Of a stretch of DNA of 64,000 nucleotides, positions 1-15,437 are shown one piece after another (position 1 is the stretch's first letter; each line of letters begins with the position of its first letter). Source of the stretch: Pelosinus fermentans DSM 17108 (GTDB taxonomy: Bacteria; Bacillota; Negativicutes; DSM-13327); NCBI RefSeq assembly GCF_000271485.2, contig NZ_AKVN02000001.1:1430001-1494000 (forward strand), given 5' to 3'. The position numbers and the translations under genes are program-made. A model generated the notes under the pieces. The model worked only from the letters and a program-made list of their open reading frames with translations, was not told where the DNA came from and ran no database searches.

Positions 1-1357
1 CACGCCTTGCGTATGGCGTGTGGATTGAAACAGCAACTTAGCCTTAACAGTAAAAGGCACATATGTCACGCCTTGCGTATGGCGTGTGGATTGAAACTGC
101 TAAAGGGGGTTAGTGATTGCCTAAACAATGTCACGCCTTGCGTATGGCGTGTGGATTGAAACTATGATTGGTAAACAGAATGTATCAGCTACTAAGTCAC
201 GCCTTGCGTATGGCGTGTGGATTGAAACTTTAACTCGGCAATCTGCTTTGCTACTGAATCAAGTCACGCCTTGCGTATGGCGTGTGGATTGAAACGATCA
301 CCTCTTTGTATCTGCCACAAGTACAATTGTCACGCCTTGCGTATGGCGTGTGGATTGAAACAGCAAGCTCACTATTTGTAAACTGATCCAGCTTGTCACG
401 CCTTGCGTATGGCGTGTGGATTGAAACATTCTTCCAACACCAAACCCGACTAATTTATTTCGTCACGCCTTGCGTATGGCGTGTGGATTGAAACTCATTG
501 GCAGGTATCATTAACGAATAGTCGCCAGTCACGCCTTGCGTATGGCGTGTGGATTGAAACTCTTTGTGACGCTACATCGGCGAGTACTCCAACAGTCACG
601 CCTTGCGTATGGCGTGTGGATTGAAACTACTGTCGTTACTAGCCTAGTTTCTTTGGCTGGGTCACGCCTTGCGTATGGCGTGTGGATTGAAACCATCTTT
701 TTACTTAACCAGCTAAACATCCTCAACAGTCACGCCTTGCGTATGGCGTGTGGATTGAAACATCATCAGCGGGTTTACTACGCTCCCAAATAAAGTCACG
801 CCTTGCGTATGGCGTGTGGATTGAAACAATCACGGTTACATGTGTCATTTTGCGTTGCTTAACGTCACGCCTTGCGTATGGCGTGTGGATTGAAACATCG
901 TCTGGGTTATCAGTGCTTTGGCAGCAATCGTCACGCCTTGCGTATGGCGTGTGGATTGAAACGCAGTACTGCGTGACACAGATTGCCCAGCGGTAGTCAC
1001 GCCTTGCGTATGGCGTGTGGATTGAAACAATGACGTTATCGCTGTTTGTAAAGGTTTAACTGTCACGCCTTGCGTATGGCGTGTGGATTGAAACCGGTAG
1101 TTATGGCTACTGGATTTATCGCGTAGTCTCGTCACGCCTTGCGTATGGCGTGTGGATTGAAACTTGACGATGGACCGCAAATAAAACATTATTTCGTCAC
1201 GCCTTGCGTATGGCGTGTGGATTGAAACTTTGACCACTTAGCCGCCTTTAGTTTCATGGTGGTCACGCCTTGCGTAGGCGTGTGGATTGAAACGCTTTCA
1301 TGATAGCCGCAATCATTGGACTCTGAGTCACGCCTTGCGTAGGCGTATGGATTGAAC
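1..1357 (+). CRISPR. CRISPR array 1, type I-C-like repeats, 5' end cut by the window
   Basis: Twenty-one repeats (the first lacks its leading bases at the window edge) separate 20 spacers of about 32-36 nt. Repeat starts are at 65, 130, 196, 263, 329, 395, 462, 528, 595, 661, 729, 795, 864, 930, 996, 1062, 1131, 1196, 1262 and 1327. Repeats begin GTCACGCC and end GTGGATTGAAAC, as in type I-C. The first 19 are 33 nt with a loop reading GCGTATGG. The last two lack that T (GCGTAGG), and the final one is also degenerate at its 3' end (GTATGGATTGAAC). The degenerate terminal repeat marks the trailer, so the leader lies left of the window and transcription runs rightward. The array is probably served by the type I-C operon at 4815-12932. 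Confidence 0.98.
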
Positions 1358-1397
1358 TCAATCAATAGCACATTGTTATTGAGATCTGAAAATAGGT

Positions 1398-1437: not shown

Positions 1438-1695
1438 TTAGTCATAATGTCCTCTGCATTGTACGATTTCAATGACTTCATCCTCAACCTTATAGATGAG
1501 TCGATGTTCAGTGGTAATTCTTCTGCTCCAGTAGCCACTCAAATCATTTTTAAGGGGCTCGGGTTTTCCTATCCCTTCATTGTAGTTACGGTCAATATCC
1601 TTAAGGAGTTCATTGATCTTCTTAAGAACCTTTTTATCAGTAGACTGCCAGTAAAGGTAATCATCCCATGCGTTATCCGAGAAAATCTTATTCAT
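1438..1695 (-). CDS. yoeB: YoeB-type mRNA interferase toxin
   Basis: The 85-aa protein has the length and pattern of the Txe/YoeB family, ribosome-dependent endoribonucleases that cut mRNA in the A site. It starts with a W-rich helix (NAWDDYLYWQ) and ends RGHYD, which carries the conserved His-Tyr pair of YoeB. The arginines of SRRITTEHRLIY match the family's catalytic region. The start codon overlaps the upstream antitoxin gene by 8 nt, so the two are translationally coupled. The toxin looks intact. It lies between a CRISPR array and the cas operon. Confidence 0.93.
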   Translation of the reverse strand: MNKIFSDNAWDDYLYWQSTDKKVLKKINELLKDIDRNYNEGIGKPEPLKNDLSGYWSRRITTEHRLIYKVEDEVIEIVQCRGHYD

Positions 1696-1945
1696 CCTCT
1701 ATAAGTTCCCTGATTTTACCTTTACCAGCCTTTAATTGGGCAATGGACTCCAGAAGTCTGTCATAGGTCTTCTTATTGCTTCTGATATAAAGATTTTCCA
1801 TAAGATTGTTATACTCATCCTCTGAGATCATAACGACATTTCCACCTTGTTTGCGGGTGATAATAATCGTTTCAAAGTCATTATTTGCTATATCACAATA
1901 CGTTTTAAGGTTTTCCCGGACATTAGAGTAATTTACTGCTAACAT
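1688..1945 (-). CDS. yefM: YefM/Phd-family antitoxin
   Basis: An 85-aa Phd/YefM antitoxin. The N-terminal part (MLAVNYSNVRENL) is the DNA-binding Phd fold, followed by the family motif TRKQGGNVVMISEDEYNNLMENLYI. The C-terminal tail, rich in K and E, is the expected toxin-neutralising segment. I chose the ATG at 1945 because AGGAGG lies 8 nt upstream; a GTG nine bases further up overlaps that site. The protein should neutralise YoeB and repress its own promoter. Confidence 0.93.
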   Translation of the reverse strand: MLAVNYSNVRENLKTYCDIANNDFETIIITRKQGGNVVMISEDEYNNLMENLYIRSNKKTYDRLLESIAQLKAGKGKIRELIEDE

Positions 1946-1953
1946 AATAAACA

Positions 1954-1977
1954 CCTCCTGTACTATATATTGTACAA
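1954..1977 (-). promoter_or_regulatory. Candidate YefM operator
   Basis: The region just upstream of yefM contains TGTACT and, 13 bases on, the palindrome TGTACA (1971-1976). TGTACA is the known core recognised by YefM-YoeB in enterobacteria, where two repeats lie over the promoter. Autoregulation here is inferred from that resemblance. Confidence 0.5.
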
Positions 1978-2956: not shown

Positions 2957-3802
2957 ATGATTTTTGTAAGGGAAGAGTCTAAGGCTATTTCATCTTTAAC
3001 GTATGAAGAATTGAATAAGATTAGTATAATAGTTGAGCAGTTTGGGAGGAGTGTTGGCGTGGACTATTCCTTGTTATTACAAACAATAGACGAGAAAAAA
3101 GCGATCTTAGATGGTAAGAAACCCTTTCCATACCATACGCTAAAAAGCCTTAGGGAAAAGTTATTAGTGGAATGGACATATCATTCTAATGCTATTGAAG
3201 GCAATACTCTTACTTTGTCAGAAACAAAGGTGGTTTTAGAGGGAATAACCATTGGTGGGAAAACACTGCATGAGCATCTTGAAGTAATCAACCACAAAGA
3301 CGCCATTCACTATATAGAAGAAATTATAGCAAATCATGAAACTTTATCAGAATGGCAGATTAAAAATATTCACTCCCTGATATTAAAGGGAATAATGCCT
3401 GGAAATGCGGGCGTTTACCGCACCGAAAATGTATTCATAAGCGGTGCCGAGCATATTCCGCCTGCATTTGTACAAGTACCTGAGCAAATGACCCAACTAA
3501 TGGAGTGGTATGCAGGAGAAGGTCAAACATTACATGTAGTGGAAAGGGCTGCTGTTTTACATAGTGAATTTGTAAAAATACATCCATTTGTAGATGGAAA
3601 TGGTCGTACAGCAAGACTATTATTGAACTTCGAACTAATGAAACATGGCTACGTGCCAATCGTCATAAAGAAAGAGCAAAGGTTAGAATATTATAATGCT
3701 CTTGATCATTCCCATATTAAAGGGGAATATGATGTATTTATAAAATTGGTGGCTGGAATTTTGGAAGGTACTTTGGGTTTTTATATACGGCACATTAAGT
3801 AG
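2957..3802 (+). CDS. Fic-domain protein, class II, probable AMP-transferase
   Basis: A 281-aa Fic protein. The Fic active-site motif HPFVDGNGRTAR is intact around residues 210-221, with His as the catalytic base. An inhibitory motif SNAIEGN lies upstream at about residue 78, which makes it class II: the Glu blocks ATP until displaced. Proteins of this type transfer AMP to a hydroxyl of a target protein. No antitoxin gene is needed, because inhibition is in cis. The start is uncertain because no good ribosome site precedes the ATG at 2957. The flanking genes fit an accessory island; the target is unknown. Confidence 0.92.
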   Translation: MIFVREESKAISSLTYEELNKISIIVEQFGRSVGVDYSLLLQTIDEKKAILDGKKPFPYHTLKSLREKLLVEWTYHSNAIEGNTLTLSETKVVLEGITIGGKTLHEHLEVINHKDAIHYIEEIIANHETLSEWQIKNIHSLILKGIMPGNAGVYRTENVFISGAEHIPPAFVQVPEQMTQLMEWYAGEGQTLHVVERAAVLHSEFVKIHPFVDGNGRTARLLLNFELMKHGYVPIVIKKEQRLEYYNALDHSHIKGEYDVFIKLVAGILEGTLGFYIRHIK

Positions 3803-3881
3803 TTATACTCTAAGAAATATTAAGTGAGAGGGTTATGGGTAAAAGACTAGGGCGATTACTGAGAAACCATAGCAACGAGCA

Positions 3882-3938
3882 GGTAAGTTAATTGACATTC
3901 CACTTACCATATGTTAATATTTACCATGTGGTAAGTGG
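3882..3938 (+). promoter_or_regulatory. Promoter with three GGTAAGT half-sites, driving the mini-CRISPR RNA
   Basis: TTGACA (3892-3897) and TAATAT (3915-3920) are separated by 17 bp, close to the sigma-70 consensus, so transcription should start near 3927. A perfect 10-bp inverted repeat, CCACTTACCA (3900-3909) and TGGTAAGTGG (3929-3938), brackets the -10 box. A third GGTAAGT lies at 3882-3888, upstream of the -35 box. The left arm lies outside the predicted transcript, so this is more likely a DNA operator than an RNA hairpin. The binding protein is unknown. A very small ORF (3835-3891, 18 codons) just upstream is weakly supported and not annotated. Confidence 0.7.
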
Positions 3939-4053
3939 AGGTAGAAATATCCTTGTGATGTTGTCGCGCATTTGCGTGTGGATTGAAATTATAGTTAATA
4001 TATTGTATAGCGTTTATTCTTGCTAGCGCCTCATATAGAGGCGTAATTTTTTT
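3927..4053 (+). ncRNA. Degenerate mini-CRISPR, crRNA-like regulatory RNA (CreA/CreR-like candidate)
   Basis: After the promoter at 3892-3920 comes a 27-nt pseudo-repeat (3963-3989) that keeps the CRISPR 3' handle GTGTGGATTGAAA. It still folds (CGCGC / GCGTG, loop ATTT), so Cas5 could process it. A 33-nt pseudo-spacer follows (3990-4022). The next bases, CGCCT...AGGCGT, match the stem of the array repeat CGCCT...AGGCGT. This second repeat remnant now ends in a T run and serves as terminator. The pseudo-spacer starts TATAGTTAATATATTGTAT and matches 4071-4089 at 18 of 19 positions. Gene order and partial matching resemble published CreA and CreR RNAs that guide Cascade to repress a promoter. No function is shown here; the RNA ends are predicted. 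Confidence 0.7.
4027..4053 (+). terminator. Terminator derived from a second repeat remnant
   Basis: CGCCTC (4027-4032), loop ATATA, GAGGCG (4038-4043), then TAA and seven T. The stem shares CGCCT...AGGCGT with the array repeats, so it may be a repeat whose 3' half was lost. Confidence 0.85.
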
Positions 4054-4070
4054 ATGTTATAAAAACCTTT

Positions 4071-4089
4071 TATAGATAATATATTGTAT
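4071..4089 (+). promoter_or_regulatory. Self-target of the pseudo-spacer
   Basis: TATAGATAATATATTGTAT matches the first 19 bases of the pseudo-spacer at 3990-4008 with one difference, at position 6. The preceding triplet is TTT (4068-4070), close to the usual type I-C PAM TTC. The region is AT-rich with several -10-like hexamers (TAATAT 4077-4082, TAATAA 4090-4095). It lies about 30 bp upstream of a strong Shine-Dalgarno sequence, so it is probably promoter DNA for the transcript that follows. No convincing -35 box could be fixed by eye. Confidence 0.65.
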
Positions 4090-4111
4090 TAATAATAGAA
4101 TTAAAAATAAA

Positions 4112-4141
4112 AGGAGGGATGGATTAGACTATAGAAGAAGA
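4112..4141 (+). other. Strong Shine-Dalgarno with a two-codon ORF and tandem AGA triplets (CreT-like candidate)
   Basis: AGGAGGG (4112-4118) is followed at once by ATG GAT TAG (4119-4127). Three consecutive AGA triplets follow at 4133-4141, in the +2 frame. Known CreT toxins are tiny RNAs with a strong ribosome site followed by a start and rare codons, sequestering a tRNA. The layout is similar, but the ATG lies only 1-2 nt from the ribosome site and the AGA run is out of frame with it. The resemblance is therefore partial and the function is a hypothesis. Confidence 0.35.
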
Positions 4142-4177
4142 ATTCCGAATATCTCTTTAATTAAGATTATAACTAAT

Positions 4178-4255
4178 ATGATAAAAAAGTATGGAGCTGG
4201 TTATAGTGCTTTACTTCTTTTTTTTAGTGATAAGGCGAAACGAATAGTTACATAA
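4178..4255 (+). CDS. Possible small peptide, 25 aa
   Basis: MIKKYGAGYSALLLFFSDKA followed by KRIVT. The frame is open upstream to the strong ribosome site near 4115, but no normal start codon exists there, and the ATG at 4178 has no Shine-Dalgarno sequence. The hydrophobic centre (ALLLFF) flanked by lysines resembles small membrane-active peptides. It ends 13 bp before the next gene. It may equally be non-coding. Confidence 0.25.
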   Translation: MIKKYGAGYSALLLFFSDKAKRIVT

Positions 4256-4268
4256 AAGAGGTGTTTTA

Positions 4269-4550
4269 ATGCAAAAGCTTACTGGAAAATATAAAAAGAT
4301 TACAGCAATCAAAAGAGTAAATGAAAACAATACATTTTCTATTAAAGTAACGCAAGAATCATTTTTGAAGTTCCCTAGGATTTATGATTTTATAGATACA
4401 CTAAGTGGATATATCTATAAAATATTTTTAAATGGGAATTTGCTGAGCAAGAATAATCATGAGCTAAGCAAATTAAATAAAGAAAATATGGATTTGAAAG
4501 CCGAGAATTCCATGTTGAAAAAAATAACAGTTCACTATTTAGAAAAATAA
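4269..4550 (+). CDS. Unknown 93-aa protein between the mini-CRISPR and cas3
   Basis: Not recognised. GAGGTG lies 5 nt before the ATG. The N-terminal half is basic and beta-like (GKYKKITAIKRVNENNTFSIKV). Residues 32-52 are hydrophobic and aromatic. Residues 58-86 form a leucine-zipper-like coiled coil (HELSKLNKENMDLKAENSML), suggesting dimerisation. It lies downstream of the pseudo-spacer target and is closed off from cas3 by a terminator. It may therefore be the gene the crRNA-like RNA controls. A regulator, toxin or Cas-accessory role are all open. Confidence 0.6.
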   Translation: MQKLTGKYKKITAIKRVNENNTFSIKVTQESFLKFPRIYDFIDTLSGYIYKIFLNGNLLSKNNHELSKLNKENMDLKAENSMLKKITVHYLEK

Positions 4551-4632
4551 AAATTAACTTTTTAATGGAGAACGTCTAATGTAATTGGAATTGGTCTTAA
4601 CTTAAATTTAAGTGTATATAGTAATTGAAATA

Positions 4633-4677
4633 AAAATCCTGCAGCGTAATAGAATCTACTGCAGGATTTTGTATTTT
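4633..4677 (+). terminator. Terminator separating the 93-aa gene from cas3
   Basis: Perfect 12-bp stem AAAATCCTGCAG (4633-4644) / CTGCAGGATTTT (4659-4670) followed by a T-rich tract. It implies that the cas operon has its own promoter in 4678-4800, which I could not place with confidence. Confidence 0.9.
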
Positions 4678-4814
4678 AATGGTAAATAAAGAAGTAATAG
4701 GTATTTCATATTATAAATCTTAAAGAATTATCTTAAGTTACAAAGCTAATATAAATAATGAGATCTTTTAAATATACTGCTTAATTTGATGAAAGGAGAG
4801 TAACTAAAATAATT

Positions 4815-7355
4815 ATGGATGATTATGAAACTAATGTAAACCTTGAAGGAATTCCTTTAAAGTTGATTTTTGTAGCACATGTTAGAGACTTGGACAAAAA
4901 AGTTCAAACATTGTGGGATCACTTGAGAGAAGTTTCGTATTTAACAGGTCAGTTTACAGAGAAGATAGGGCTTCGAAAACATGGAGAACTAATAGGATTA
5001 TTGCATGATATTGGAAAGGCAAGCAGGGAATTTAATCAATATATTCGATCTGCAACAGGGCTTATTGGTCCGAATGACAGTGAATATATTGATCCAAAAG
5101 AAAAACGCGGAAAAATTGATCATGCAAGTGCAGGAGCACAAATAATACATCGTTATTTTTCCAATAAAGGTAGTGAGTATAAGTTTGTACTGCAAATTTT
5201 GTCACTAGCAATTGCATCTCATCACTCTGGCTTAATCGATTGTCTTACTATAGAAGGGAAAGATAACTACTCGAAACGAATGAATAAGATCAATGAAAAA
5301 ACACGATTTAATGAAGTTGTAAAAAATATGGATAATTCGTTAAAACAAAAAATGGACGAATTAATGTTTGATAATGATTTCGCTCCTTGCTTCATTAAAA
5401 AAATGAGATCATTACAGGAAAAAAAAGATTCAGTAGAAACTATTAAATTCAAAGTGGGGTTATTAGCACGATTACTTTTTAGTTGTCTAATTGATGCAGA
5501 TAGACTAAATACGGCAAATTTTGAATTTCCGAAGAATGAAATTTTAAGAAATCAAGGTAATTATGTGGAATGGTCTATTTTAATAGATCGATTAAATATT
5601 CACCTAGCCAAGTTTGAAAAGAATAAAAGCAAATCTGAAAAACAGAAAATAGTTAATTCTTTGCGAACCAGGATTTCTAACGAATGTATGAATTATTCTG
5701 AAGAAAAGAAAGATGTTTATCAACTTACAGTTCCGACCGGTGGTGGAAAAACTTTATCAAGCTTACGTTTTGCATTAAATCATGCAAAAAAACATCAGAT
5801 GGATCGAATTATTTACGTCATACCTTATACCTCAATCATTGATCAGAATGCTGAGACAATAAGAAATATATTGGAAATTGAGCAGGAGGACGGTACTTAT
5901 ATTGGTGATGTGGTATTAGAGCATCATTCTAATTTAACGCCAGAAGAAGAAACTGATCGACAAAAGCTACTCGCAGAGAATTGGGATGCACCGGTCGTTT
6001 TTACAACGATGGTGCAAGTTTTAGAGAGTCTATTCGGTCATGGAACAAGAAACTCTCGGCGAATGCATCAACTTGCGAATGCAGTTCTCATATTTGATGA
6101 AATTCAAACTCTTCCTATTCGATGTGTACATCTTTTTAATATAGCAGTTCGTTTTTTTATACAAGGATGTAATTCGACGGTGGTACTCTGTACTGCAACG
6201 CAGCCTTTATTAGGCAAGGTGAAACCAATTGAAAAAGCATTACAAATTGCACCAAGGCAAGAAATGATGTCTGATGTCTCAAAATTATTTGAGGAATTAA
6301 AAAGAGTGGAAGTTTATGATAAATGTAAACTTGGTGGCTGGACGGAGGATGAAATTGCTAGCCTTGCAAAACAGGAATTAAAATTGACTGGTAGTGTTTT
6401 GATTATAACTAATACCAAAAAAAGTGCGAAAAATCTTTTCAGTTTACTTCAAGATCAACCTAATACCAAAAGATTTCATCTTAGTACAAATATGTGTCCA
6501 ATACACCGTATGGAAGTATTGGATAAGGTAAAAGAGTGTTTAGAAGCGAATATTCCGGTTATCTGTATTAGTACACAACTTATTGAAGCTGGCGTTGATA
6601 TTGACTTTGGTAGTGTTATTCGCTACTTGTCAGGTATTGACTCAATTGCACAGGCTGCCGGACGTTGCAATCGAAATGGGGCAAGATCACAAATTGGGAG
6701 AGTCTTCATCGTCAATCCCAAAAAGGAAAATCTAGATAAGCTACCAGATATTAAAATTGGCGGAAATATTACAACGCGTATACTTGAAGAATTTAAAACT
6801 GATCCAGAGCAGTTTGATAACGATATTATAGGTCCTAAGGCTATAAAACGTTATTATGAATATTATTTTCATGATCGAGCTAAGGAGATGAAATATGAAG
6901 TTGATAGTAAGTCCAGTGTTGGTAGAGCAGATAATTTATTCAATCTGTTATCTGCCAACCAAATATCAGTGCAAGAATATCAAAGAATGAATGACAATGC
7001 TTCTCCTGACTTGGCCTTATGTCAATCATTTATGGCAGCTGCAAAGTCATTTCAGTCAATTGATTCATCTGGGCGAGGTATTATTGTTCCATATAAAGAG
7101 GGAAAGGATATTATTTATGATCTTTGCGCAAGCAATGAATTAGAAAAGCAATATGCTTTATTAAAAAAAGCACAACGTTACTCCATTAATGTATTTTCAT
7201 ATTTATTTGATGAACTTGTGGAAAAAGAAATCATTCATGAAATACAAAAAGGATCAGGAATTTTTTATCTTAATGATCAGTATTACAGCGAAGACTATGG
7301 TATGAGTGACTCATCGGTGAATGAAATGGAAGTTCTTATTTATGGAGGTGTATGA
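4815..7355 (+). CDS. cas3: Cas3 helicase-nuclease, type I-C
   Basis: 846 aa, full length for Cas3. The N-terminal HD nuclease carries LLHDIGK (His64-Asp65) and DHASAGA. The SF2 helicase has Walker A PTGGGKT (about residue 307), DEIQ (about 427), [17 protein letters not shown] and [10 protein letters not shown] (about 613). It unwinds and degrades DNA marked by Cascade. It is the first gene of a tightly packed operon. The ATG at 4815 lies 16 nt from the nearest ribosome site (AAAGGAG, 4792-4798). This is too far for efficient use, so initiation may be weak or begin at an ATA/ATT codon between. Confidence 0.98.
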
Positions 7356-8074
7356 TGATGGAAAACAAAGTGCAATTTAAAGTTTATGGGAAATATGCCC
7401 TTTTCACAGATCCATTGACTAAAATTGGTGGTGAGAAATGTTCTTATCAAATACCAACTTATCAGGCGTTAAAAGGCATTATGGAGTCGGTGTACTGGAA
7501 GCCGACCATTGTGTGGATAATTGATAAAGTAAGAATTATGAAGTCAATACGAACGCAAACTCGTAGCGCTAAACCTATTAATTATGGTGGAGGAAATTCT
7601 TTAGCGATTTATACTTATCTTTCTGATGTAGAATATCAAGTTCAAGCTCACTTTGAGTGGAATCTGAATCGAGAAGATATGGTAAAAGATCGGAATGAGA
7701 ACAAGCACTTCTTTGTAGCAAAGAGGATGATTGAGCGTGGGGGGCGAAGAGATATTTTTCTTGGTACACGTGAGTGCCAGGGATATGTGGAAAGTTGTGA
7801 TTTCGGTGAAGGTGAAGGATTTTATGATTCTTATGGGGAGTTAGCTTTTGACCTAATGTTCCATGGCTTCGATTATCCTGATGAGCTAGGTGAAAATAAG
7901 CTTCAAGCAAGATTCTGGCGACCTAAACTAGTAAATGGTATTGTGGAATTTAATCGTCCAGAAGAATGTATTAATAAGTTTGTGAAACTAATGATGGCAG
8001 CCCCTCCTATTTCTATTGGATTGCAAGAGGAGGGTATTTTGGAAGGGTATTCCCAAGAGGAGGCTTTGCAATGA
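7352..8074 (+). CDS. cas5c: Cas5 (Cas5d/Cas5c) crRNA-processing subunit
   Basis: About 240 aa. In type I-C, Cas5 replaces Cas6: it cuts pre-crRNA at the base of the repeat hairpin and stays bound to the 5' handle in Cascade. The sequence ([44 protein letters not shown]) is the Cas5d N-terminal RAMP fold. ATG codons at 7352, 7355 and 7358 are in frame. GGAGG at 7343-7347 favours 7355 or 7358. The gene overlaps cas3 by 4 nt. Confidence 0.97.
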
Positions 8075-10002
8075 GTTGGATGCAAAAGCTTTATGAAACT
8101 TACGAAAATTGTGCAAGTGCGAAAGACACATCCCTGTTGTCAATCTGCCATACAACACAAAAGGCTCAAATTGAAATTATTATTGATAATGCGGGGAATT
8201 TTAATAGGGCGAGAGTAATTGCAAAAGATCAAGCGCGAACGATTATTCCTTGCACGGAAAGCTCAGGTGGAAGGGCTGGAATAAAACCAGAAGCTCATCC
8301 TCTTTGTGATAAACTGCAATATCTTGCTGGAGATTTCGCTATATATGGCGGAGAAGTAACGAAAGGCTATGCCAAAAATCCTACGGAACCATATGAAAAA
8401 TATACAGAACTTTTGCAGCAGTGGTGTGATTCGGAATTTACTCATCCAAAAGCAAAAGCAGTTTTTGAATATGTTAAAAAAGGTAATTTAATAAAAGATT
8501 TGGTTGAGAGTAAAGTGTTATTTTTAGATGATAATAAAAAACTTTTAAAAGAGTGGAGAGGGGATACCAAGCAAGAAGTTCCAGAGATTTTTAAGGTTAC
8601 CCAAAATTCAATACAAGGAGATGCTTTTGCACGATGGATAATTGAAATACCTACCGATCCGCAAAGCGCAGTCTGGACAGATGAAAGCTTATTTGACAGT
8701 TGGACGAGGTTTTATTTATCAACCAAAAAAACTAGTGGGTTGTGTTTGGTTACTGGGGTGAACATAGCTTTGTCTGATCAGCATCCAGCTAAAATAAGAA
8801 ATGATGGAGATAAAGCAAAATTAATTTCCTCCAATGATATAAGCGGTTTTACCTTTCGGGGGCGTTTCTTATCTGCTGAACAAGCATGTGGTGTTGGATT
8901 TGAAGTAACGCAAAAAGCACATAATGCTTTGCGATGGCTTATTAATCGCCAAGGGTATAGGCGAGGAGATTTAGCAATAGTGGCATGGTCAACTGTTGGA
9001 AAAAAAATTATTGATCCTCTGGCTGATCCCTATTCTATATTCAATATTGATGAAATGGAAAGTGATTCGGAGATTTTAGCTGCAACTACTCAGGAATTAG
9101 CGATCAAGCTAAATAAGAAGATTGCTGGTTATCAAGGAGAAATCGGAAATACAGCAGGAGTTGTTGTCATGGGACTTGACTCTGCAACTCCTGGCAGGAT
9201 GGCTATGACATTTTACCGGGAACTTACTGATTCTGATTTTTTACATAGAATTGAGGATTGGCATAAGTCATGTTGCTGGATTCATAATTATCATTCGAAA
9301 GAGATTATTGATAAAAAAACAGGAAAAAAGCAAAAAATCAAGGTTCGACTTGTTGGTGCTCCTACTCCCAATGATATTGTAGAAGCGGCTTATGGAAGTA
9401 AGGTAGATGATAAATTACGTAAGACAACTGTAATGCGTATCCTCCCTTGTATTATTGACGGAGAGAAGATTCCAAGAGATTTAGTAGAATCTGTGGTTAG
9501 GCGTGCCATAAATAGGGGAGCGATGGAAGCGTGGGAGTGGAATAAAACCCTCAGCATAGCTTGTGCGCTTTATCGAAAATATCAAGAGAAGGAGAATTAT
9601 GAGATGGCTTTAGATGAAAAACGAGCAAAAAGAGATTATTTATATGGCAGATTGTTAGCCTTAGCTGATGGCTTAGAAGAGTGGGCATTAAGACAAGGAG
9701 GGGAAAATCGTCAAACCAATGCAGCTAGGTTGATGCAACGATTTGCGGATCATCCTTTTACAACGTGGCCTACTATTGAACTTGCGTTACTGCCTTATAA
9801 AGCTCGATTAGGGAAAAAAACTGCAAAAATTGAAGGATTAATATCAAAAGTTACGGCGATGTTTGAACCCGATGATTTTATAAGCGATAAAAAACTAAGC
9901 GGCGAATTTTTACTAGGATATCATTGCCAGCGAGAAGCAAGATGGTATGAAAAAAGTATAGACAAGGAAATTATATCAGAAATAGAGGAGGAAATAGTAT
10001 GA
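8071..10002 (+). CDS. cas8c: Cas8c (Csd1) large subunit of type I-C Cascade
   Basis: 643 aa, within the usual Csd1 size. It starts [11 protein letters not shown] with a GAGGAGG site and overlaps the cas5 stop by 4 nt. Cas8c recognises the PAM and recruits Cas3. Conserved Csd1 stretches include a glycine-rich core near residues 70-90 and the MTFYRELT segment. The C-terminal third is also translated separately as Cas11c from an internal start at 9604. Confidence 0.97.
9604..10002 (+). CDS. cas11c: Cas11c small subunit from an internal start within cas8c
   Basis: In frame with cas8c, an ATG at 9604 is preceded by AAGGAG (9589-9594) with 9-nt spacing, which is near ideal. The product would be 132 aa, all helical ([20 protein letters not shown]), fitting known Cas11c subunits that coat the Cascade belly. 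Internal initiation of Cas11 from cas8c is established for type I-C; here it is supported by the ribosome site and length. Confidence 0.85.
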   Translation: MALDEKRAKRDYLYGRLLALADGLEEWALRQGGENRQTNAARLMQRFADHPFTTWPTIELALLPYKARLGKKTAKIEGLISKVTAMFEPDDFISDKKLSGEFLLGYHCQREARWYEKSIDKEIISEIEEEIV

Positions 10003-10904
10003 GAACTTTGGAAAACAAAATTGATTTTGCAGTAGTCATAAATGTAAAAAATGCCAATCCCAATGGAGATCCTTTGAATGGGAACAGACCTCGTACAAAC
10101 TATGATGGATATGGAGAAATATCTGACGTATGCATTAAAAGAAAAATACGAAACCGTTTAATGGAGATGGGAAAAGAATATTCTATTTTTGTTCAGTCAG
10201 ATGACAATAGGGTGGATGGATACAGAAGCCTTCGTGAGAGAGCGGAAGGAGAATTGAAAGATGCTCTTAAAAATGAGGAGAATTTTCGAGAAGAAGCTTG
10301 TAAAAAATGGCTTGATGTTAGAGCCTTCGGACAAGTTTTTGCTTATAGTGGAGGAAAAAAAGGAAAGGGAAAAGCTAAGTCTGAAAGTGGTGAAGAGCCT
10401 GGGGATGACAAAGGTGTTTCCATTGGGATTAGGGGACCAGTTTCGATTCATCCAGCCTTTAGCGTTAGTCCCATAAGTATTTCCAGTATTCAGATTACCA
10501 AGAGTGTTAGTGGTGAAGGAGATGGGAGTAAGCGGGCCTCTGATACTATGGGGATGAAACATCGTGTAGATCATGGAGTATATGTATTTTATGGTAGTAT
10601 AAATCCTCAGTTGGCTTCTAAAACCGGTTTCAATGACGTAGATGCCGAGGTTATCAAGCAAGCATTAAGTGAGTTATTTCAGAATGATGCATCTTCTGCA
10701 AGACCAGAAGGAAGCATGGAAGTCTATCAAGTCTATTGGTGGAGACATGATTCAAAGAATGGACAATATTCGTCTGGAAAGGTTCATCGCTCATTGGAAA
10801 TTGTATTAAAAGATAGTGTGGCAGAAGCAAAGTCAATAGATGACTATAATATTACAATCCATCCGTTGGAAAATTTAGTGCCAGAAATTATTGATGGTAA
10901 ATAA
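9999..10904 (+). CDS. cas7c: Cas7 (Csd2) backbone subunit
   Basis: 301 aa. It begins with the hallmark Csd2 sequence KIDFAVVINVKNANPNGDPLNGNRPR. Multiple Cas7 copies form the crRNA-bound filament in Cascade, and their thumbs flip out every sixth guide base. GAGGAGG precedes the ATG, which overlaps the cas8c stop by 4 nt. Residues about 115-135 form a lysine/glycine-rich loop (GGKKGKGKAKSESGEEP). Confidence 0.97.
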   Translation: MRTLENKIDFAVVINVKNANPNGDPLNGNRPRTNYDGYGEISDVCIKRKIRNRLMEMGKEYSIFVQSDDNRVDGYRSLRERAEGELKDALKNEENFREEACKKWLDVRAFGQVFAYSGGKKGKGKAKSESGEEPGDDKGVSIGIRGPVSIHPAFSVSPISISSIQITKSVSGEGDGSKRASDTMGMKHRVDHGVYVFYGSINPQLASKTGFNDVDAEVIKQALSELFQNDASSARPEGSMEVYQVYWWRHDSKNGQYSSGKVHRSLEIVLKDSVAEAKSIDDYNITIHPLENLVPEIIDGK

Positions 10905-10907
10905 ATC

Positions 10908-11615
10908 ATGTTATCTATTGATTTAGAAGATGACTTTCTCATGCTCTCAGGAATCCAGCATATAGCTTTTTGTGAGAGGCAGTGGGCACTCATTCATATT
11001 GAGCAAGTTTGGGCGGAAAATGTTCGTACCGTAGAGGGGCAGCACCTTCATGAACGTACTGATGATCCCTTTGAAGATGAAACAAGGACAACCTTGCGGA
11101 CAGTTAGAGCCATGCCGCTTATTTCAAGGAAACTGGGACTTAGAGGTATTGCGGACGTGGTGGAATTTCACCAGGAAAAGGAATTGATTGAAGGTAAGAC
11201 TTGTCGTCTTGAAGGCAGAGAAGGTTGGTGGCGACCGATTCCTGTAGAATATAAGAGGGGGCGTCCCAAAAAGGATGATCGGGATGCTGTTCAATTGTGT
11301 GCCCAAGCCATGGCATTGGAGGAGATGATGCAGGTATCAATTGATACAGGATTTCTCTTCTATGCTCAAACGAAACATCGGGAAAAGATTTTGTTAGATG
11401 AAACCCTTCGTTTGCATACCGTAGAACTTGCCAGCCGCATGCAGCAGTTTTTTCGCGAAGGGAAAACACCGAAAGCAACCAAGGGAAAACGCTGCTCCCA
11501 GTGTTCTTTGGTGGAAGAGTGTCAGCCAACCTGGACATTGCGTCATCGTCCCGTCAAAGATTATCTGGCACGAATGTGCCGCGAGGAGGTGGATGACTCT
11601 TGCGACGGCTTCTAA
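10908..11615 (+). CDS. cas4: Cas4 exonuclease for spacer PAM selection
   Basis: 235 aa. RecB-like nuclease core: PVEYKRGRPK, with Glu and Lys of the active site, and upstream Asp in GIADVVEF. The iron-sulfur cysteines are one near the N-terminus (FCERQW, about residue 22) and three at the C-terminus (CSQCSLVEEC, about 195-204). Cas4 trims prespacers and sets PAM orientation with Cas1-Cas2. It is 3 nt downstream of cas7 with a weak ribosome site. Confidence 0.97.
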   Translation: MLSIDLEDDFLMLSGIQHIAFCERQWALIHIEQVWAENVRTVEGQHLHERTDDPFEDETRTTLRTVRAMPLISRKLGLRGIADVVEFHQEKELIEGKTCRLEGREGWWRPIPVEYKRGRPKKDDRDAVQLCAQAMALEEMMQVSIDTGFLFYAQTKHREKILLDETLRLHTVELASRMQQFFREGKTPKATKGKRCSQCSLVEECQPTWTLRHRPVKDYLARMCREEVDDSCDGF

Positions 11616-12631
11616 ATACATTGTATGTAACCTTGCCAGATGTTTATTTAGCCTGTGATGGCGAGAATGTACTGATTAAAGTCAATGATGAGATTAAATT
11701 TCGGGTTCCTGTTCACAACTTAGAAGGAATTGTTTGCTTCGGCTTTGCAGGAGCCAGTCCAAGATTGATGCATTTGTGTTGTGAGCGAGGTGTAGCCATT
11801 TCTTTCTTATCACAATATGGAAAATTCATGGGACGCATTACGGGTAATGTATCAGGCAATGTTCTACTTAGGCGAACACAATATCGCTGGTCGGATGATG
11901 AGATAGTGACGACCCGGTTATCACGCCGATTTATTGCCGCTAAAATTATGAATAGCCGGGCGGTATTACATCGTGTTTTACGAGACCATACTGAAGTGGT
12001 TGATAATGAAGCTCTGGAGAGAGCACTTCAATTATTAGCAAGGATGCCTGCGAAGTTGGAAATGGCACATCATGGTGATTCTATACGAGGCATTGAAGGA
12101 GAAGCAGCGCATCTCTATTTTTCTAATTTTAATCAATTAGTATTAAATCAAAAGGAAGCATTTCGTATGCTAGGGCGAAATCGCAGACCACCGACAGATC
12201 GAGTGAATGCTTTGCTATCTTTCTTATATACGCTGCTCACGCACGAAGTTGTAGCGGCTCTCGAAAGTGTTGGACTTGATCCCCAGGTTGGGTTTTTGCA
12301 TAGGGATCGACCAGGACGACCTAGTTTAGCACTTGATGTCATGGAAGAATTGCGCCCGCATTTTGTGGATCGTCTAGCAGTGACGTTGATTAATCGCAAT
12401 CAGATTACAGCAAAAGGCTTTGTCGTAAAGGAAAATGGTGCTGTGATTATGGATGATGATACTCGTAAGGAAGTATTGACTGCTTGGCAAAAGCGCAAAC
12501 AAGAAGAGATTACTCATCCCTATCTGGAAGAAAAAATTCCTTTGGGTCTTGTGCCATATGTTCAAGCTATGCTGCTGGCGAGGCATATGCGTGGTGATTT
12601 AGAAGATTATCCGCCATTTTTCTGGAAATGA
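11600..12631 (+). CDS. cas1: Cas1 integrase
   Basis: 343 aa. The start is TTG at 11600, 9 nt after GAGGAGG, because the nearby ATG at 11593 is out of frame. It overlaps cas4 by 16 nt. Catalytic residues are visible: Glu in RGIEGEAAHLYF (about 167), His in VGFLHRDRPGRPSLALDVMEE (about 233), then the acidic Asp/Glu of that motif. Cas1 joins new spacers to the leader end of the array. Confidence 0.98.
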   Translation: MRRLLNTLYVTLPDVYLACDGENVLIKVNDEIKFRVPVHNLEGIVCFGFAGASPRLMHLCCERGVAISFLSQYGKFMGRITGNVSGNVLLRRTQYRWSDDEIVTTRLSRRFIAAKIMNSRAVLHRVLRDHTEVVDNEALERALQLLARMPAKLEMAHHGDSIRGIEGEAAHLYFSNFNQLVLNQKEAFRMLGRNRRPPTDRVNALLSFLYTLLTHEVVAALESVGLDPQVGFLHRDRPGRPSLALDVMEELRPHFVDRLAVTLINRNQITAKGFVVKENGAVIMDDDTRKEVLTAWQKRKQEEITHPYLEEKIPLGLVPYVQAMLLARHMRGDLEDYPPFFWK

Positions 12632-12641
12632 GGGTTTGGCA

Positions 12642-12932
12642 ATGATGGTATTAATTACTTATGATGTAAGTGTGACCACCGATTCGGGAAAGAAACGTCT
12701 TCGCAGAGTAGCGAAACAATGTGTAAATTATGGTCAACGTGTTCAAAACTCAGTTTTTGAATGTTTACTTGACCCAGCGCAGTTTGCAGAGTTAAAGCAT
12801 CGCTTGGAAAGCATAATCAATCATGAGACGGATAGCCTGCGATATTATTTCTTAGGAAGCAACTGGAAAAATCGCGTAGAGCATGTGGGTGCGAAATCAG
12901 GATATGATCCAGAAGGAGTTCTGATGATCTAA
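12642..12932 (+). CDS. cas2: Cas2, spacer integration partner
   Basis: 96 aa ferredoxin-like protein beginning MMVLITYDVS, with the conserved Asp of Cas2. I prefer the ATG at 12642 (or 12645), since GAGGG lies 7 nt upstream; a TTG at 12636 is also in frame. It bridges two Cas1 dimers. It is the last gene of the operon, directly followed by the array leader. Confidence 0.97.
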   Translation: MMVLITYDVSVTTDSGKKRLRRVAKQCVNYGQRVQNSVFECLLDPAQFAELKHRLESIINHETDSLRYYFLGSNWKNRVEHVGAKSGYDPEGVLMI

Positions 12933-13097: not shown

Positions 13098-15437
13098 GTC
13101 ACGCCTTGCGTAGGCGTGTGGATTGAAACCGAATATCTTTGTCTGCCACTGCTAATGCTAAGGCGTCACGCCTTGCGTAGGCGTGTGGATTGAAACTATA
13201 GTAACTCCGTTTGTTGTCTCTGAGCTTCCTGGTCACGCCTTGCGTAGGCGTGTGGATTGAAACCATATTATGGGGAGCCTTGAATTTCTTTTGCATAGCG
13301 TCACGCCTTGCGTAGGCGTGTGGATTGAAACGCTCCGCTGTTTGATCCTGTGTCATTCGAGCTGGTCACGCCTTGCGTAGGCGTGTGGATTGAAACTATG
13401 ATTGGCGCTAACTCGGAGGCTTGGTATGCTGTCACGCCTTGCGTAGGCGTGTGGATTGAAACAAATAGCCAGTATACAGTCCGTTATCAGACGTAGTCAC
13501 GCCTTGCGTAGGCGTGTGGATTGAAACATCTGTAAAGCTACCGTTGTCATGGAGTGTCGTAGTCACGCCTTGCGTAGGCGTGTGGATTGAAACTAAGTCC
13601 TCTCATGCCAATACCAATATGCCTGAGGTCACGCCTTGCGTAGGCGTGTGGATTGAAACTAGAGCTAGACATTGTTCTATCAAACATTTCTTTGTCACGC
13701 CTTGCGTAGGCGTGTGGATTGAAACAATTCACCAGTGCCGGCTTCAGCATCATTAACTTCGTCACGCCTTGCGTAGGCGTGTGGATTGAAACATCGTCTA
13801 TGAAATCAAACAACGTAGGTGTATCAATGTCACGCCTTGCGTAGGCGTGTGGATTGAAACTGTCTGATGTGTTGACCATGCGTTATTTCTTAGGTCACGC
13901 CTTGCGTAGGCGTGTGGATTGAAACTTATTGTTTTGGCTAACACCGTTGGCGTATTGGTCACGCCTTGCGTAGGCGTGTGGATTGAAACTGTTCACCAGT
14001 TAACTGGTCTATGTATTCTTCGGTCACGCCTTGCGTAGGCGTGTGGATTGAAACATCATCTGCATTGTCAATAAATGCAGTTTCAACCAGGTCACGCCTT
14101 GCGTAGGCGTGTGGATTGAAACATTAGAAGTTGCTTTTTGGATAGCTTTGCAACTGTCACGCCTTGCGTAGGCGTGTGGATTGAAACCCTTAGTAATTGC
14201 CAAGGTGACGGTGTGAGCTTCGTCACGCCTTGCGTAGGCGTGTGGATTGAAACACAGAAGAAGAAAAGGAAATGCTTGAAAACTGGGTCACGCCTTGCGT
14301 AGGCGTGTGGATTGAAACTCAAATCTGCACCTCTAAAGATATAAGTCTTGCGTCACGCCTTGCGTAGGCGTGTGGATTGAAACAATGTCACATGAGTAAC
14401 CTCTATAATTCGCCATTGTCACGCCTTGCGTAGGCGTGTGGATTGAAACATTGTTCGTCACTCCGTTTACCTATGATACACATGTCACGCCTTGCGTAGG
14501 CGTGTGGATTGAAACCATTTTGATCATTTATTAGGGGCTAAACCCCATTGTCACGCCTTGCGTAGGCGTGTGGATTGAAACTTATTAACTCTGTAGCCAA
14601 CCATATTTGTTTTACCGTCACGCCTTGCGTAGGCGTGTGGATTGAAACTGCCAAAAACGAGCCGAATTGCTGGCAGGTGAACGTCACGCCTTGCGTAGGC
14701 GTGTGGATTGAAACTCACCAAGACTAGCTTTGCCAATAGCCTGTATACTGTCACGCCTTGCGTAGGCGTGTGGATTGAAACACGTATTTGAAATTCAAGG
14801 TTTAGACCACCAAGTCACGCCTTGCGTAGGCGTGTGGATTGAAACCAACTGAGTTGATGCTGTTTTTAAGTCCTGTTTGTCACGCCTTGCGTAGGCGTGT
14901 GGATTGAAACACGTATCTTAAAGCGATTGAAGCTCTACTACGGTCACGCCTTGCGTAGGCGTGTGGATTGAAACAATTAAACAATATTTTATAGAGCGAT
15001 TTATTAAGTCACGCCTTGCGTAGGCGTGTGGATTGAAACAGATCTTCGGCAGCCAGTATAAAAGAGGAGTTGGTCACGCCTTGCGTAGGCGTGTGGATTG
15101 AAACATAGGTTTTATTTGTGACTACATCCATTCGTGCAAGTCACGCCTTGCGTAGGCGTGTGGATTGAAACATAATTAAAGATAATGAAAAACCTGAGCA
15201 TAAGCGTCACGCCTTGCGTAGGCGTGTGGATTGAAACATGTAAAACTTGTTAGGGGTTACATTTCCTTTATTGTCACGCCTTGCGTAGGCGTGTGGATTG
15301 AAACCCCATTGTAAGGTATTTCCTTGTGCCACTTTTCTGTCACGCCTTGCGTAGGCGTGTGGATTGAAACCGTTTTTCGGGTTTCAACATCAACCCTCTG
15401 GTAGAGTCACGCCTTGCGTAGGCGTGTAGATCAAAAC
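13098..15437 (+). CRISPR. CRISPR array 2, type I-C, complete
   Basis: Thirty-six repeats of 32 nt and 35 spacers of about 32-36 nt. The repeat begins GTCACGCCTTGCGTAGG and ends GTGGATTGAAAC. CACGCCT / AGGCGTG form a 7-bp stem with a TGCGT loop. All repeats look identical except the last (15406-15437), which reads GTGTAGATCAAAAC and marks the trailer. The leader is at the cas2 side, so the newest spacers are near 13130. One spacer (14516-14549) contains its own GGGGCTAAACCCC hairpin. Confidence 0.99.

Follow-up and report, generated by a model that had tools for sequence, protein, structure and literature searches.

A one-repeat crRNA-like guide RNA gene beside a type I-C cas operon of Pelosinus fermentans and its predicted role in Cascade-guided repression

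Shmakov and colleagues reportedly described, in 2023, crRNA-like elements that consist of standalone repeats or mini-arrays and partially match promoters in cas loci. In haloarchaea, the RNA CreA represses a promoter through Cascade at a site with a TTC PAM, and mutagenesis showed that guide positions 1-5 and 7-11 are required and positions 6 and 12 dispensable (PMC8501985). CreTA has been described for type I-B systems of haloarchaea and for type I-F in Acinetobacter (PMC10097628). The cas-regulating RNAs named CreR have been described for types I-B, I-E and V-A (PMC13131331), and CrePA is a guide RNA that represses a protein toxin gene (review PMC12737573). In the literature covered, we found no CreA or CreR case of type I-C. 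Here we describe a solitary degenerate type I-C repeat followed by a short guide that matches DNA close by, within a window of 64,000 nucleotides from P. fermentans DSM 17108 (contig NZ_AKVN02000001.1), and compare it with related loci.

Layout of the window and anatomy of the guide RNA gene

The cas operon of the window (Table 1) is of type I-C, with Cas5c, Cas8c/Csd1, Cas7/Csd2 and Cas1c above the cut-off and no cas6. The effector genes are intact in the same genome, cas5c, cas8c and cas7 being present at full length. Two CRISPR arrays accompany the operon, and their repeats differ slightly (33 and 32 nt, GCGTATGGCGTG versus GCGTAGGCGTG); copies of the downstream-type repeat form the end of the upstream array. 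A YoeB/YefM toxin-antitoxin pair (1438-1954, minus strand; Pfam YoeB_toxin, E 6e-39, and PhdYeFM_antitox, E 2e-16), followed by an HTH_3 regulator, lies 3' of the upstream array and 5' of the guide gene, and a gene for a Fic-domain protein (2957-3802, plus strand; E 5e-24) lies directly 5' of the guide gene. The Fic gene precedes cas3 in congeners too, including the congener that has no cassette of the kind listed below.

Table 1. Coordinates of the guide RNA gene, its target and neighbouring features in the window
Feature	Position	Strand	Remark
CRISPR array upstream	1..1358	+	final repeats degenerate
Guide RNA promoter, TTGACA-17-TAATAT, TG 5' of -10	3892..3920	+	consensus match only
Inverted repeat spanning -10/start region, possible operator of guide promoter	3899..3939	.	
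Degenerate type I-C repeat, 5-bp hairpin	3963..3989	+	compared with array repeat
Pseudo-spacer	3990..4022	+	target-matching part 3990-4008
Intrinsic terminator, 7-bp stem and T-run, in place of second repeat	4026..4053	+	
PAM position, TTT	4068..4070	+	three bases 5' of target
Promoter-like site overlapped by target, TTTATA-16-AATAAT, 9/12	4069..4096	+	weak; consensus match only
Target (protospacer)	4071..4089	+	18/19 match, mismatch at position 6
ORF of 93 aa, likely regulated gene; orphan and diverged relative of IS3 OrfA	4269..4550	+	
12-bp hairpin between ORF and cas3, terminator-like	4633..4670	+	z -4.1; conserved in congeners
Most conserved intergenic block 5' of cas3, candidate cas promoter region (putative role)	4659..4691	+	
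Type I-C cas3-cas5c-cas8c-cas7-cas4-cas1c-cas2	4815..12932	+	all frames open, no cas6
CRISPR array 3' of cas2	13098..13989	+	part seen, array runs on beyond

Judged from its sequence, the guide gene resembles a self-contained small transcription unit with promoter, repeat hairpin, guide and terminator. Its terminator is the sole one found by a scan of positions 3780-4830, and a palindrome, GTAAAATTTTAC, occurs in congeners at the place that corresponds to the -10/start region of the guide promoter. The degenerate repeat is of the CRISPR type resident in the same genome and lies outside the arrays, 5' of the guide. Its last 11 nt (3979-3989, TGGATTGAAAT), the expected 5' handle, differ from the array handle in the final base only, and positions 3974-3995 match the array copy at 13181-13202 at 21 of 22 positions, which places the pseudo-spacer directly against the degenerate type I-C repeat.

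The sequence-only reading had reported a match between the start of the pseudo-spacer (TATAGTTAATATATTGTAT) and a site about 80 bases away (TATAGATAATATATTGTAT). When we recomputed it, we obtained the same 18 agreements in 19 positions, with the single difference at position 6 and no agreement past 19 nt. Total complementarity is limited, and the seed (positions 1-5 and 7-11) matches at all ten positions. Within 4010-4814 the best match of the guide 19-mer is 18; none of 20,000 dinucleotide shuffles of this region reached 18 and nine reached 17, and when the guide itself was shuffled in this way 5,000 times, one shuffle reached 18. With position 6 left free, the 19-mer has no other mismatch-free site in the 5.03-Mb genome. 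The sole place with one mismatch, C1:200138, was considered as a second chromosomal target and rejected, as its PAM position reads TAA and the site is where a coding frame ends. A scan of a viral collection for PAM plus target returned one contig, probably by chance, and an Rfam search gave nothing that reached the gathering score, a weak GcvB match being taken as chance. Sites like the promoter predicted at 4069-4096 are about as frequent in shuffled sequence, hence this is a weak prediction.

Guides and targets covary across type I-C loci

A comparison of pseudo-spacer and target in relatives had been proposed along with the original match. We analysed about 138 related type I-C regions and the window, nearly all of the regions being centred on Cas8c genes of related genomes, and found 58 solitary repeat-like sites (motif GGATTGAAAC/T). 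For inclusion, a guide had to match DNA within 600 nt with a score of at least 8.5, with all positions weighted alike and the PAM ignored. Seventeen of the 58 sites, including the window, have a guide that matches DNA at most 600 nt away; three more that exceeded the threshold were excluded (L056, L037 and L165; one array fragment and two without PAM). The 17 pairs span many genera, and at least 16 bacterial genomes besides that of the window have the arrangement, with differing guide sequences. The four lowest scores (L097, L120, L127 and L138) are each near P 0.06, and we kept these loci on the strength of their PAM, seed pattern and location.

Guides and targets covary across these loci: the guides differ, and each matches its own neighbour in the seed, with 10/10 agreement in 15 loci and 9/10 in the other two. 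Position 6 is mismatched in 14 of the 17 loci and so is position 12, the latter count being partly inflated by how matches end, an effect that was seen in the null and leaves position 6 unaffected. Within positions 1-12, two further mismatches make up the remainder. The PAM reads TTC in 13 loci, TTT in three and GTT in one; the TTT that flanks the window target, which had been described as close to the type I-C PAM TTC, is thus among the TTC or TTT found in 16 of 17. The mean score of guides placed in other loci is 5.8, versus 10.8 at their own, with TTC at 3.3%, and 600 random guides of similar score gave position 6 mismatches no more commonly than elsewhere and TTC at 3.5%. When guides were permuted onto the targets of other loci, 0 of 100,000 permutations reached the observed seed agreement; we consider the swap and random-guide controls fairer than this permutation, because targets were picked as best matches. 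Compensatory change is seen in close orthologues, at positions 2 and 14 between L121 and L124 and at positions 3, 8 and 11 between L117 and L110.

The locus L048, a near relative of the window in its effector genes, has a solitary repeat 5' of cas3 and no convincing target. Possible reverse-strand targets were left out of the count (L050, L088, L108, L164 and L091). In the first four of these, solitary type I-C repeat guides match the nearby opposite strand with 9/10 seed agreement and mismatch mostly at position 6, and they are possible further members.

We compared the window with type I-C loci from three more species of the genus, G001 (L103), G002 (L104) and G004 (L105). L103 and L104 repeat the layout of the window, running from promoter through degenerate repeat, guide and terminator to target and small ORF, and their guides are unrelated in sequence (TCTTCTTGTATGAAATA versus target TCTTCATGTATAAAATA in L103; TCCAGATGGTACATAT versus TCCAGTTGGTAAATAT in L104). 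The PAM is TTC in both, and mismatches are restricted to positions 6 and 12. Their guide promoters, at the corresponding place, are TTGACA-17-TAAAAT (L103) and TTGATA-17-TAAAAT (L104), and their terminators were found by scan as well. In L103, a recognisable second degenerate repeat doubles as the terminator stem, suggesting how the one-repeat form of the window arose. As a separate observation, Cas4-Cas1-Cas2 of L103 and L105 are 94-100% identical to those of the window and Cas3, Cas5 and Cas7 about 30%, from which we read that the effector module was swapped as a block within the genus.

Could the match be a decaying leftover, an AT-rich duplicated stretch beside an old repeat with no function? 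In its favour, both repeat and ORF have degenerated, guide and target are rich in A and T, and a shuffled guide also got 18/19. Yet promoter, hairpin, terminator, match and PAM all reappear, in unrelated sequences, in the congeners and 14 further loci, and neutral drift would not spare the seed while striking only positions 6 and 12, which makes a leftover very improbable. Lower still we rate a Racr-like anti-CRISPR RNA, in which the solitary repeat would merely occupy Cas proteins and the guide match would be incidental. Solitary type I-C repeats do function as RacrIC1 in a prophage (PMC10651486), but the element of the window adjoins a cas operon that belongs to the host, and its guide, target and PAM are conserved together although a Racr requires no matching target.

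Cascade-guided repression of the site at 4071-4089 is the best explanation of the pair, because the rule that was proven for CreA by mutation emerges here from evolution alone; we put its probability at roughly 80%. Two points speak against it: the window target has TTT in place of a TTC PAM, and the promoter under the target is a weak prediction. The proposal that selection has favoured repression by Cascade without cleavage is supported by the 17 covarying loci, the drift at positions 6 and 12 and the PAM, with repression itself as the predicted outcome. A crRNA-like type I-C guide RNA would be transcribed from the promoter at 3892-3920 and cut by Cas5 at the degenerate repeat, the terminator hairpin presumably substituting for a second repeat. 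It would be loaded into the type I-C Cascade with the 11-nt handle, and the complex would pair with the target beside the TTT PAM through positions 1-5 and 7-19, leaving position 6 unread. A 19-nt match would probably fail to license Cas3, going by what is established for partial matches, and the complex is expected to remain bound with no cleavage of the target.

Candidate transcripts under control of the guide

The target sits 5' of the ORF at 4269-4550, where a promoter is only weakly predicted. The encoded protein is 30% identical (E 2e-9) to that of the small ORF of L104, an IS3 OrfA-type protein (HTH_Tnp_1, E 2.1e-9) with no OrfB behind; elsewhere in the family, there are copies followed by OrfB-like sequence. 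No toxin family match was found for the window ORF. The OrfA-like cassette is present in the window and in both L103 and L104, and in G004, whose Cas4, Cas1 and Cas2 are 99-100% identical to those of the window, the entire cassette is absent as a unit and the block just 5' of cas3 is retained.

The 17 loci fall into two placement classes. In nine loci, cas3 and cas5 flank the guide gene, which is on the opposite strand from cas (L121, L124, L120, L138, L127, L117, L110, L073 and L049). The target is immediately 5' of cas5 in eight of them, and hence autorepression as by CreR fits; in L049 it precedes cas5 by some 600 nt and has a DUF4062 ORF nearby. The guide of the window might work as described above and mainly limit the cas operon in the same way, through read-through from the target promoter. 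Besides these nine loci, this account can draw on the position of the target, which is on the same strand as cas3 at a distance of 725 nt, and on CreR being known in types I-B, I-E and V-A (PMC13131331). The ORF and the hairpin, however, intervene between target and cas3, L103 and L104 have further hairpins there, and the conserved block 5' of cas3 is present without the cassette in G004. We regard autorepression in the window as a serious possibility, if the lesser one.

The module is upstream of cas3 in the other eight loci (window, L103, L104, L054, L089, L042, L097 and L119). In L089, genes for DUF3791 and DUF3990 proteins (10783-11480, minus strand) lie behind a promoter region that is matched 17/17 by the adjacent type I-C guide, and the DUF3990 protein resembles the PADLOC defence candidates PDC-M13 and PDC-M10. 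In L042 and L097, the target precedes the guide by about 50 nt, where the guide probably has its own promoter; the module of L119 is near PIN and MazE-type genes. A further rival reading is a CreT-like RNA toxin, a short toxic RNA from near 4100 that the guide would silence, with the 93-aa ORF as a relic. A strong Shine-Dalgarno sequence, AAGGAGG, follows the target in the window and L103 with no normal start behind it (tiny or no frame), and CreT toxins are such mini-ORF RNAs (PMC8501985). In L104, however, the corresponding Shine-Dalgarno sequence leads directly to the OrfA-like ORF, and the target of L054 is followed by an ordinary ORF of 85 aa; we think a CreT-like toxin unlikely.

We lean towards the cassette, with its orphan IS3-OrfA-like gene at 4269-4550, as the regulated transcript rather than cas, because the ORF and the hairpin intervene and a congener without the cassette exists. 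The bound complex would block the promoter that overlaps the target and most likely drives the cassette gene. As long as Cascade is available, this gene would stay off, to be released upon loss of Cascade, inhibition by an anti-CRISPR or titration by other crRNAs. More tentatively, the cassette could have a guard role. A one-repeat guide, whose second repeat has turned into its terminator, would direct Cascade to silence an orphan IS3-OrfA gene that has been domesticated and serves as sentinel or addiction factor upon loss or inhibition of Cascade, and type I-C systems of several families would use such guides to autorepress the cas5 operon; taken as a whole, we hold this scheme to be conceivable and rather doubtful.

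Comparison with described Cascade guides

At the level of sequence, the pattern of the 17 loci is the signature of CreA and CreR known from other subtypes. RNA-guided gene control by native Cascade would thereby reach subtype I-C as well, an extension for which the 17 guide-target pairs give comparative support. The two placements predict type I-C loci that autorepress their effector genes versus loci that keep a neighbour gene silent, and the natural series of guide and target variants is usable to test which positions Cascade reads. Type I-C systems serve as tools, and therefore competition for Cascade from hidden native guides is of practical importance.

The guide of the window shares with CreA of CreTA a degenerate repeat followed by a short guide, predicted base pairing through positions 1-5 and 7-11 that dispenses with 6 and 12 (PMC8501985, PMC10097628), a target that is predicted to lie in the promoter of an adjacent non-cas gene, and a one-repeat form that ends in a terminator. 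The PAM of CreA is TTC, as in 13 of the 17 type I-C loci, versus TTT in the window. Unlike CreA, the window system is of subtype I-C and would depend on Cas5 instead of Cas6 for cutting, its putative regulated gene is an orphan IS3-OrfA-like ORF, and the guide gene is upstream of its target gene. As in CrePA, protein-coding cargo beside cas appears to be under a Cascade guide (PMC12737573), but the cargo is of a different family with no toxicity known. CreR is likewise a mini-CRISPR guide whose complementarity to a promoter within the cas locus is limited (PMC13131331, PMC12737573), whereas the window target is separated from cas3 by 725 nt that hold an ORF and a hairpin. RacrIC1 is also a solitary type I-C repeat RNA (PMC10651486), but it is phage-borne and acts by mimicry, and the window has a conserved guide-target pair in a host cas locus. 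Overall, the window resembles CreTA and CrePA more than CreR, because the target promoter probably serves the cassette and not cas, and it appears to represent a known kind of Cascade guide in a subtype previously unreported within the literature covered, with an unusual cargo.
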